Under the pieces are notes generated by a model. That model was not told where the DNA came from, searched no databases, and saw only the letters and a list, made by a program, of their open reading frames with translations. This document shows, in pieces, positions 25,425-39,674 of a stretch of 64,000 nt of DNA. A program made the translations under genes and the position numbers. Origin of the DNA: Tsukamurella sp. 8F (lineage in GTDB: Bacteria; Actinomycetota; Actinomycetes; Mycobacteriales; Mycobacteriaceae); assembly GCF_029167375.1 (NCBI RefSeq), contig NZ_JARFTP010000019.1, positions 1-64,000 of the forward strand, read 5' to 3'. Each line of letters begins with the position of its first letter. Position 1 is the stretch's first letter.

Positions 25425-25469
25425 GTGTCGGGCTGACAGGATTTGAACCTGCGACCACTTGACCCCCAG
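25425..25469. repeat. attL core (tRNA-Pro 3'-half copy)
   Basis: This 45-bp stretch is identical to 39630-39674. It covers the tRNA-Pro sequence from the anticodon loop to the 3' end plus a few bases beyond, and breaks off at 25470 where the other copy continues into the anticodon stem. It is the tRNA fragment displaced when the element integrated. Confidence 0.92.
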
Positions 25470-25575
25470 AGCGCCGAACGAGGAGCAACTACGTCCGTCC
25501 AGTTTGAATATGTGCAGGTCACGGCGTTGGCGGCGTTCAGTACGTAGCATCGTGTCCACGGTGTTCGGACGTGTC

Positions 25576-25602
25576 TTGGCAAGCTGTTGGCAACCTGGCG
25601 GC
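25576..25602. promoter_or_regulatory. Left integrase arm-type site (P' or P arm)
   Basis: Two TTGGCAA copies, 25576-25582 and 25587-25593, are spaced 11 bp apart and followed directly by CCTGGCGGC. The same arrangement in the same orientation lies near the right end (39529-39555). Paired inner repeats at both ends are what arm-type integrase sites look like. Confidence 0.6.
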
Positions 25603-25624
25603 GCGCTGTCGGCGCGTGAGAGCG

Positions 25625-26062
25625 CTACCCCGAGAGCATGTTTCCACCGGCGCCGCCGAGGGCATCGAGGGCGACCTGCGTCGCGGCGCCGGACAGCCAG
25701 AGCCCGATCTGTTTGGCCATGCTCCGCCGCTCCTTAGGTTCGGAGTCGTCCTCCGCCATCGCTTCGAACGCGGCGATCAGCCGATCAAGTTGGTTCTCCG
25801 GCGTCGGCCACTGCCCGACGACCCGCAGCGCATCGCCCGTCGGCGCGCCCACGCGCATGATCTGGCCGCCCGACGCCCCTTGCGTCTTCTCGAAGTACGG
25901 CTGCCGCATGAGTGCCCGTATCGCACGCTGAACAGTGTCCTGGTCGAAGTCGGTGGCTCTCGCGATCTCACCGACTTGCACAGCTTGGCCGGTCTGTTCG
26001 TACAGCTCGACCACCGCGCGGAGTACGGGTACGTCGCGGGTGCTCCAGGTGTCCTCGGTCAT
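25625..26062 (-). CDS. Winged-helix DNA-binding protein, element gene
   Basis: 145-aa protein with a predicted winged helix at residues about 10-65 (RAVVELYEQTGQAVQVGEIA, then TDFDQDTVQRAIRALMRQ). The C-terminal part is helical (ENQLDRLIAAFEAMAEDD). ATG 26062 is used because the upstream codons belong to a non-coding stretch. It is the last leftward gene before attL. Possible roles are regulator or an effector; the sequence does not tell. Confidence 0.65.
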   Translation of the reverse strand: MTEDTWSTRDVPVLRAVVELYEQTGQAVQVGEIARATDFDQDTVQRAIRALMRQPYFEKTQGASGGQIMRVGAPTGDALRVVGQWPTPENQLDRLIAAFEAMAEDDSEPKERRSMAKQIGLWLSGAATQVALDALGGAGGNMLSG

Positions 26063-26131
26063 GGACCGTGAGCTTATGGCGCGCGGGTGGGCGCGGGGAC
26101 GAACTTCGCGCAAGATTCCACCGGACGTCGC

Positions 26132-26797
26132 TCAGGCAGCCGAACCACCTGGTCTCTCCTGCGGTTCCTCTTCGCCGTCGAGCCCTTTGGCATGCCTGAT
26201 ATCAGATGACAGTACCCACGGGAGCCAGTACAACCATGTGGGTGCAGAGCGTGGAGGTTCTGACTGCTCCCATCGGCTCGGCTTCGGTGACAGCCATGCG
26301 GGTCGGCGTGCGTCTCGCCGCCGGAAATCGTCGGGCATCCCCTCGCGGACAAACCTGAACCGTTCCTCCCGGGTCATCATGACCGAGCTGCTGAACGCGT
26401 ATATGCTCTCGGCCGCGATGAAGCCGAGGACGCCCAGCACGCTCCAGAGCAGCCATCCGTACGGCTTCCACCGGGGGAGCACGACCATGGCTGTCAAGAA
26501 GATTCCGTAGCCAGCGACCGCGAGCGCGTACATCGACCACTCGGTCGGGACTCGGTGATACGCCGCCACACGTTTAGAGAGGCGGCGCGCCTCAGCGCAC
26601 AGTTCTCGACGCTCGACCGCAAGCTCGGGTAGTTGATCAAGCTTCATCTTGTCGAGCAGATCCAAGACTTTTTGGAGCCGCCACCCGAAATAGCGGCCTG
26701 GCCCTGCGAGAGCGAGTCCGAGCGCAACCGCAGCGGCAATCGAGGCCGCCGTAACGGGACCAGCAAGCGGCACGAACCAACTGCGCGAAGTGTCCAC
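26132..26797 (-). CDS. Element-encoded membrane protein
   Basis: 221-aa protein with three hydrophobic helices: one at the N-terminus (VTAASIAAAVALGLALAG), and two around residues 100-140 (MYALAVAGYGIFLTAMVVL and the WLLWSVLGVLGFIAAESIYAF region). Between helix 1 and 2 lies a basic helical segment. The C-terminal third is hydrophilic and acidic at the end. GTG 26797 lies just behind the M41-like gene's stop. No family recognised; a superinfection or membrane-effector role is only a guess. Confidence 0.55.
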   Translation of the reverse strand: MDTSRSWFVPLAGPVTAASIAAAVALGLALAGPGRYFGWRLQKVLDLLDKMKLDQLPELAVERRELCAEARRLSKRVAAYHRVPTEWSMYALAVAGYGIFLTAMVVLPRWKPYGWLLWSVLGVLGFIAAESIYAFSSSVMMTREERFRFVREGMPDDFRRRDARRPAWLSPKPSRWEQSEPPRSAPTWLYWLPWVLSSDIRHAKGLDGEEEPQERPGGSAA

Positions 26798-26828
26798 CGC
26801 GCAAGTATGGCGGACTTTGCGCGGAGGT

Positions 26829-39020: not shown

Positions 39021-39508
39021 ACGGCCACACGGCAGGCGGCGATCTGCCGCCCGAACTCGATCTCAGTGGCTTTTCGGGGTGGGTGTCGTTCGCAGACCTG
39101 TCCATCGCCGAGGTGCCGCGTGGCGCAGGGGTCTACGTCGTTGTGCGCCCCGGCGACAGCCCGCCTCGGTTCCTCGACGTCTCGCCCGCAGGCCACTACA
39201 AGGGGCGGAATCCGACGCGGCCGGTCGAGGTGTTGGCAGCGCGGTGGGTAGACGGCGCTCGCATCGTCTACATAGGCAAGTCCAAGACGATCCGTTCCCG
39301 CCTATACCAGTACCGAAATCACGGGGCCGGGAGCCATTCCGCCGCGCACAGCGGCGGGAAGGGCATCTGGCAACTCGCCGACAGCGCGGACCTCCTCGTC
39401 GCGTGGCGCGAGACGCCGGTAGCGGTCGCCAGGCCCACCGAGAAGGCGATGATCGCGGCGTTCTGCGACCACTACGGATGTCTGCCTTTCGGCAACGAGA
39501 AGCACTGA
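39017..39508 (+). CDS. GIY-YIG nuclease-like protein coupled to the integrase
   Basis: 163-aa protein with a GIY-YIG-like core: GAGVYVVVRPGD (GIY strand) and RIVYIGKSKTIRSRLYQYRN (YIG strand with following Arg), then GGKGIWQL, LLVAWRETP and a Glu in RPTEKAMIAAF that could be the metal ligand, ending CDHYGCLPFGNEKH. GIY-YIG domains cut DNA. It overlaps the integrase stop by 4 bases and lies between int and attR, so it would move with the element. Roles in recombination, helper-phage interference or defence are possible; none is shown. Confidence 0.75.
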   Translation: MNGHTAGGDLPPELDLSGFSGWVSFADLSIAEVPRGAGVYVVVRPGDSPPRFLDVSPAGHYKGRNPTRPVEVLAARWVDGARIVYIGKSKTIRSRLYQYRNHGAGSHSAAHSGGKGIWQLADSADLLVAWRETPVAVARPTEKAMIAAFCDHYGCLPFGNEKH

Positions 39509-39528
39509 CCTCGGCACGCTGCGGGCCG

Positions 39529-39555
39529 TTGGCAAGTTCTTGGCAAGCTGGCGGC
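39529..39555. promoter_or_regulatory. Right integrase arm-type site
   Basis: TTGGCAA at 39529-39535 and 39540-39546 (11-bp phase), followed directly by GCTGGCGGC. It matches the left site (25576-25602) in position of repeats and flank, in the same orientation, 75 bases inside attR. Confidence 0.6.
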
Positions 39556-39592
39556 TGATCCGCCACGTAGACGACCCACCCCGAGGAACAAG

Positions 39593-39625
39593 AAAACCCC
39601 TTCCGAGCTGGTCGGAAGGGGTTTT
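39593..39625 (-). terminator. Terminator of the tRNA-Pro gene (element-borne)
   Basis: A perfect 14-bp stem (39593-39606 with 39612-39625) with a 5-base loop; both arms end in A/T runs, so it can work in both directions. It lies inside the element and replaces the terminator left behind at attL. Confidence 0.85.
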
Positions 39626-39629
39626 CACT

Positions 39630-39674
39630 GTGTCGGGCTGACAGGATTTGAACCTGCGACCACTTGACCCCCAG
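39630..39674. repeat. attR core
   Basis: 45 bp identical to 25425-25469. This copy, carried in by the element, completes the tRNA-Pro gene from the anticodon loop to the 3' end. Confidence 0.93.

Follow-up and report, generated by a model that had tools for sequence, protein, structure and literature searches.

The 64,000-bp stretch of Tsukamurella sp. 8F analyzed here (contig NZ_JARFTP010000019.1, positions 1 to 64,000; hereafter the window) contains an integrated element whose ends are formed by perfect 45-bp direct repeats at 25425–25469 and 39630–39674, 14,205 bp apart. The right repeat corresponds to the 3′ part of a tRNA-Pro(ggg) gene located on the minus strand at 39632–39706, so that the 14.2-kb unit with perfect attachment (att) repeats described in the initial annotation lies where it was placed. 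The element encodes an integrase, replication functions, a TerS-like protein and a full-length TerL, and the comparisons below suggest that it is a phage satellite with its own packaging motor. Its features are listed here, the family assignments coming from Pfam and PHROG scans of 19 hand-picked open reading frames (ORFs) of the element; the loci and complete elements cited are those of the survey described further below.

25425..25469, no strand: attL core, 45 bp, same letters as attR
25625..26113, minus strand: winged helix-turn-helix (HTH)-like regulator, weak Rrf2/HrcA-type matches, relatives in L069 and L288
26132..26830, minus strand: accessory ORF, membrane type by eye, no family match
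26829..27377, minus strand: M41/M50B-like HEAxH metalloprotease-like protein, satellite-specific (profile matches, conserved motif)
27462..28169, minus strand: u27, all-helical and satellite-specific, candidate scaffold or capsid redirector (structure prediction, searches)
28360..28668, minus strand: u28b, small satellite protein (cluster 2: 11/12 complete elements, 0/10 phage loci)
28935..29195, minus strand: second HTH_17 protein (PF12728, E 5e-13)
29531..30067, minus strand: MmpS-like membrane protein, accessory (PF05423, E 2.1e-13)
30238..31743, minus strand: TerL, motor and nuclease acids conserved (phrog_38, E 3.2e-85)
32245..32700, minus strand: u32, partner of the TerS-like gene (phrog_27872; 7/7 head-bearing and 33/38 headless loci)
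32697..33224, minus strand: putative TerS-like protein (phrog_645, alignment; in all 7 head-bearing TerL loci)
33492..33656, no strand: iteron cluster, candidate replication origin, six TATCTGTC
34602..36608, minus strand: Rep-like AAA_25 ATPase (PF13481, E 1.8e-18)
36716..36931, minus strand: Xis/AlpA-like HTH_17 protein (PF12728, E 1.1e-9)
37036..37584, plus strand: HTH regulator kept in relatives (weak HTH matches; cluster 12, 6/12 complete elements)
37623..39020, plus strand: tyrosine integrase (PF00589, E 1e-13; phrog_1)
39017..39508, plus strand: GIY-YIG-like protein adjoining int, accessory (weak PF01541 match, below cut-off)
39630..39674, no strand: attR core, 45 bp, the 3′ part of tRNA-Pro(ggg)

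The genes named in the initial annotation (integrase, Xis-like protein, Rep ATPase, iterons, TerS-like protein and full TerL) are all recovered by the Pfam/PHROG matches and the repeat count. The iteron TATCTGTC occurs six times in a stretch of 165 bp that lies between the Rep and TerS-like genes, and seven times in the whole 64-kb window, where 0.62 copies are expected. Rep and the iterons together constitute, at the sequence level, a replication module with an iteron origin as looked for in phage-inducible chromosomal islands (PICIs). The type of Rep varies among the relatives, the same-genus locus L106 having a primase-type protein in place of the AAA_25 Rep. Apart from the terminase matches, no head gene appeared in the scans of the 19 ORFs, and nothing in the element was labeled as a portal, protease, capsid or tail gene of the Dori or McProf type, in agreement with the earlier statement that none of these is present; nor were head or tail genes recognized that would mark the remains of a Dori-like prophage. 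A conjugative or mobilizable element was set aside, because the same scans gave no match to a relaxase or transfer family, no search having been aimed at conjugation. What is found at the locus is an integrated mobile unit with att sites, an integrase and an incomplete set of virion genes, the combination by which phage satellites are generally recognized.

The att core is present over 43–45 bp, at ~97.7% identity or more, in 16/16 genomes of the genus. A second copy of it (the full 43 bases, at least 98%) is listed for G000 and G761 alone, whose tRNA-Pro site holds an element in both cases and in no other of the genomes; the second match is shorter (25–30 bases) in G765, G313 and G764. None of the other 15 same-genus genomes was found to have, next to the tRNA, the genes that flank it in the window, and the empty site can thus be compared only through the single versus double core copy. 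Stretches nearly identical to the core are also found in Giles-type phages, in the M. abscessus prophage prophiGD51-2 and in two plasmid records; because of the phage and prophage matches, the tRNA-Pro site seems to be common to phages and satellites.

Relatives of the TerL were detected in 19/397 genomes sampled over the order, in 78/396 Mycobacterium genomes and in 5/16 genomes of the window's own genus, counts that mix satellites, phages and fragments. We compared 45 TerL-centered neighborhoods of ~20 kb each, comprising five loci (L050–L054) and 40 hand-chosen ones (38 from the Mycobacterium survey and 2 from the same-genus survey); the latter are near-full-length matches, mostly on long contigs, and the 45 are not a random sample. 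The fragments L055, L056 and L069 and the distant loci L057–L062 were excluded, as was L001, which is the same stretch as L124 (counted). Genes were called with a custom script, for which starts may be off and genes missed, and absence therefore means absence among the called genes. No Dori-like portal, protease or capsid gene accompanies TerL in 38 of the 45 loci, one of which (L051) is a lone TerL, while 7 carry all three. The headless loci contain the M41-like gene in 35 cases, u27 in 34, the TerS-like gene in 33, u32 in 33 and the gene of a pentamer-type capsid protein in 28. In the head-bearing loci, M41 and u27 are found in none and the TerS-like gene and u32 in all 7; the pentamer count of 2/7 is a lower bound, the other five loci ending at the capsid gene.

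Thirteen elements could be bounded by repeats, 12 of them through direct repeats of at least 20 bp and the thirteenth in G203 (14,652 bp), where the repeat agrees with the window core in 43/44 bases on the opposite strand. Twelve of the 13 measure 13,033–15,191 bp and L142 measures 9,826 bp, the median of the 13 being 14,652. The repeat lies at a tRNA gene in 12/13 elements (Pro, Val(tac), Val(cac), Leu, Asn or Ala); L107, with a 30-bp repeat and no tRNA, has the weakest bounds, and a 20-bp repeat in L118, 7,334 bp apart, was not accepted as att. Among the 12 complete elements compared, TerL is present in 12 and the pentamer protein in 10. Of the 11 other complete elements, 6 have a repeat cluster upstream of the TerS-like gene, with a motif that differs from element to element, when a cluster is required to exceed the highest value from 10 codon-block shuffles of each element; the same test gave no cluster at this position in L054, L127, L128, L136 and L142.

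A deletion unique to the window copy of a prophage is thus ruled out by the headless relatives (38/45) together with the 13 repeat-bounded elements. Had close relatives carried portal, capsid and tail genes next to terL, the satellite interpretation of the initial annotation would have been refuted; instead, the relatives with the same gene set that it proposed to look for in the Mycobacteriales turned up as 38 headless TerL loci, and their recurrence means that the window element is not a single unlucky prophage. The comparison supports the phage-satellite interpretation. The term "capsid-less" needs a restriction, because it describes the window copy and some relatives, whereas 28/38 headless loci carry a pentamer-type capsid protein; judged by the called genes, the strict sense fits only the former.

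Of the ORFs of the complete elements, 68 are unlabeled, and none of the 25 of 53 matched PHROG families listed for them is named portal, capsid or tail. Some of the cargo ORFs in the 12 complete elements have PADLOC matches, for instance to RmrA, NsnA and PD-T4-6 (2/68 each), which hints at defense cargo. In the IMG/VR locus L196, an Int-Rep-TerS-u27-M41 unit without pentamer gene (1–14808) faces a McProf-type capsid, portal and TerL module on the opposite strand, and the locus may be a composite or two adjoining elements. The window's own genome has a second satellite-like element near the start of contig C13 (L256, 1–20000), with a serine integrase (phrog_95), a scaffold (phrog_4708) and an HK97 major head protein (phrog_10) at 1090–8062; it resembles candidate PICIs and, as we take it, phiRv-type elements.

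The window TerL is 85% identical to that of L106, with nonsynonymous and synonymous divergences (dN, dS) of 0.146 and 0.852, the corresponding values for the integrase being 0.153 and 0.713. Judged by these values, TerL is under purifying selection. The residues D171, D172, D320, D348 and D472, which we assign to the motor and nuclease sites, are kept in 44/44 satellite TerLs. The earlier view that the catalytic residues are retained and that this argues against passive decay is upheld by both observations. In a tree of 72 TerL rows, 44 of them from satellites, the label changes between satellite and phage only 2 times, and 16 TerLs of Dori-like phages form a clade that sits among the satellite TerLs, the root resting on long outgroup branches. 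This tree and the pentamer tree discussed below are quick trees with SH-like approximate likelihood-ratio (SH-aLRT) support only, in which many forks are unresolved. The window TerL is 60% identical to that of Mask and 42% to that of TPA2, and TerL matches 1,421 of 50,697 phage records at E 1e-5; a scan of IMG/VR returned distant TerLs only (27–40% identity), which were kept out of the counts.

These data bear on whether the element might be a remnant prophage, i.e., a Dori-like phage that has lost its structural genes and is decaying. TerL, the TerS-like gene and u32 are common to Dori-like phages, the window is devoid of a pentamer gene, and TerL fragments with stop codons exist in other genomes. 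Such an origin is quite improbable in our view, because a comparably compact set of genes is seen at 13 separate sites, all bounded by repeats, u27 and M41 have no match in phage records, TerL is under purifying selection, and the Dori-like phage clade falls within a diverse array of satellite TerLs.

A different question is whether the TerL of the satellite is used at all. The same-genus locus L288 (G313:C67:118500-138400) encodes at 5911–19674 a recombinase (serine-type by eye), Rep, the TerS-like protein, u32, u27, the pentamer protein and M41, and lacks TerL; a 19-bp repeat, 13,763 bp apart, may mark its ends. On this evidence TerL would not be indispensable to the satellite lifestyle. It could be imagined that packaging is performed by the helper TerL only, the satellite's own copy being either a vestige or a decoy in competition with the helper terminase, all the more as some S. 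aureus pathogenicity islands (SaPIs) encode TerS alone to redirect packaging, according to the accessible part of PMC10690885. We regard this scenario as unlikely, given that the acids of active-site type are conserved in 44/44 satellite TerLs, that dN/dS is low and that TerL occurs in all 12 complete elements, although sampling by TerL under-counts members without it.

The TerS-like protein has, according to the alignment, an HTH and a conserved C-terminal tail, and a comparison with TerS profiles from the PDB gave no TerS match. Its family, phrog_645, is labeled "RNase E"; the members here are a small HTH protein adjoining replication and packaging genes, and the label looks wrong. In the G203 element (L053, 5700–7754) the TerS-like domain is located inside a 684-residue ORF, either a fusion or a start-site artifact.

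Two further genes set the satellites apart from the phages. The M41/M50B-like protein keeps HEA.H in 13/13 aligned members; each of them also matches PF13398 with an E value of at most 0.01, that of the window falling below the curated cut-off. The u27 protein is predicted to be all-helical with a pLDDT (predicted local distance difference test) score of 83.6, and a search of the PDB with its fold gave no match (best E 0.37). When the L054 copies of the two proteins were compared with 50,697 phage records, no match to either reached E 0.01. The IMG/VR scan with M41 yielded one locus, and the pentamer scan gave five more M41-bearing contigs, from which it follows that such pattern scans under-count. 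The u27 gene stands directly before the pentamer gene in 5/5 satellite-type IMG/VR contigs; in L143 the two are fused in one 509-residue ORF (6402–7931), and a second u27-pentamer pair is present at 2136–3436. In the window element u27 and M41 are back to back, and the pentamer gene is missing.

The pentamer protein has an HK97 fold according to the fold search, and its relatives are named "major capsid pentamer protein" in phage records, 523 of which match at E 1e-5 (among 50,697). Its gene adjoins the hexamer gene in Rosebush/Dori-like phages, and follows it directly in 43/45 phage-type IMG/VR contigs, the other 2 being cut at the contig edge. A tree of pentamer proteins with 33 satellite and 51 phage rows (84 in all) shows 8 changes of label, of which well-supported branches force at least 5, and in it the same-genus satellite L106 is sister to the Tsukamurella phage TPA2 with support 100 (70% identity). 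The 8 changes, compared with 2 in the TerL tree, and the L106-TPA2 pairing lead us to read the vertex gene as repeatedly captured from local phages, while the motor would be inherited within the satellite lineage.

The HK97 fold and the proximity of u27 could also be taken to mean that the satellites are capsid-forming in a wide sense, with u27 as scaffold, the pentamer-type protein and the metalloprotease building a small shell of their own, and the helper giving portal and tail only. Scaffolds often adjoin capsid genes, and the 5/5 arrangement and the L143 fusion fit such a scheme. It is nevertheless very unlikely, since the window element and 10/38 headless loci have no pentamer gene, and the interleaving of satellite and phage pentamer proteins fits co-assembly with helper hexamers better.

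On balance, the window element is probably an integrated satellite of Rosebush/Dori-like phages that has its own terminase and borrows portal, hexamer protein and tail. The observations behind this assignment are the anatomy of the element, its conservation, the selection on TerL, the relatives and the fold match; from them we infer excision, replication, helper use, packaging and an effect on the capsid. The element would integrate by tyrosine recombination at tRNA-Pro and be excised with the aid of the Xis-like factor. On infection by a helper, it would replicate from the iterons by means of its own Rep, and the TerS-like/TerL motor would then package it into the proheads of a Rosebush/Dori-like phage, whose shell (T=9 in Rosebush) has one protein for the hexamers and another for the pentamers. 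Portal and tail would come from the helper, as would the hexamer protein, the maturation protease and the lysis functions. Most members examined also bring their own pentamer (vertex) protein, u27 and the metalloprotease-like protein, which may steer helper assembly toward small capsids fitting ~14.5 kb. The window copy, having no pentamer gene, would depend on vertices from the helper, and concatemers might be packaged into full-size heads.

More tentatively, and as an idea to which we give somewhat less than even chances, the extra vertices from the satellite's own pentamer protein, carried together with u27, would shift the hexamer:pentamer balance, such that helper hexamers close as T=3 or T=4 shells that are filled by the satellite terminase. 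The pentamer gene, repeatedly reacquired from local helpers, would then act as a helper-specificity cassette, and members without it, the window copy among them, would use full-size heads. If capsid volume is scaled down from a T=9 helper with 61.4–72.1 kb, a T=3 shell would hold 11.8–13.9 kb and a T=4 shell 18.2–21.4 kb; most elements fall between these ranges, and scaling does not decide.

Several results weigh against the assignment of the window element as a terminase-bearing satellite. The gene set varies among complete elements, since L142 has neither Rep nor the TerS-like gene, L127 neither u27 nor the pentamer gene, L136 no M41, and the G203 element none of the three genes u27, M41 and pentamer. 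The called genes indicate that TerL and the pentamer protein are each frequent and can be separated, and that u27 and M41 are common without being universal; u27 was found in 4/394 genomes over the order, in 2/84 genera. L288 has no TerL, and several TerL fragments with stops in other genomes indicate that decay also occurs. That the TerS-like gene is a TerS we infer from architecture and synteny only. A profile search of the window's own genome for the pentamer gene was empty, the best tblastn match in the element having E 0.031, and no terminal repeat was found in the IMG/VR loci. Finally, the Dori-type hexamer gene is present in only 1/19 element-bearing genomes (G489) and absent from the own genome, which rules out a resident Dori-like helper as a general feature; helpers would usually arrive by infection.

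If the assignment is correct, this is a satellite family common in Mycobacterium and also present in the window's genus, which separates the motor (its own) from the shell (the helper's), whereas usually both are taken from the helper or both are brought. A capsid built from separate hexamer and pentamer proteins would make vertex-driven size control directly testable. The pentamer gene could, in addition, offer a sequence-based prediction of a satellite's helper, a problem whose difficulty is discussed in the accessible part of PMC11389934.

The closest phages, of the Rosebush/Dori/TPA2 type, have a TerL homologous to that of the window and share the pentamer protein with the satellites, and Dori-like phage loci also share the TerS-like gene and u32; they differ in having full head and tail genomes of ~59–72 kb and no u27 or M41 match. 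Among satellites, P4-like ones have Sid/Psu/Delta-type genes. PICIs are similar in size to the present family (~14–15 kb) and have an Stl-type master repressor that is lifted by a helper protein. The window element shares with SaPI-type PICIs the site-specific integration and the Xis-like, Rep and TerS-like genes. Unlike them, its family has its own TerL, the HEAxH metalloprotease-like and u27 genes, a capsid-type protein related to the phage pentamer protein, and other hosts and presumed helpers. Satellite-encoded capsid-size switchers are known in SaPI-type PICIs, Ccm of SaPIbov5 among them, as stated in the accessible part of PMC12409344. Among the structures listed by the fold search with the pentamer protein is 7rwz, an entry for the SaPIbov5 procapsid, through one chain that may belong to any protein of that entry.

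Both TerS and TerL are found in capsid-forming PICIs (cf-PICIs), according to the consulted portion of PMC10690885, and these islands encode in addition portal, major capsid, protease and connectors, none of which was recognized in the window element. The actinobacterial satellites MulchRoom and MiniFlayer of Streptomyces likewise have TerS and TerL; as described in the same portion, they contain portal, major capsid and scaffold genes and lack key replication genes, unlike the window element. Candidate mycobacterial PICIs, some with tyrosine integrases at tRNA genes and some with a terminase, have, as their defining features in the accessible text of PMC10654092, an integrase together with a major capsid protein; no capsid gene was recognized in the window element, and a screen that requires one, as in that text, would miss members without it. 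In the literature searched, at the level of titles and abstract openings and mostly outside subscription papers, no satellite with TerS and TerL and without portal and capsid was found. The element family is thus probably new within the phage satellites, set apart from both PICIs and cf-PICIs by the descriptions of these two groups.

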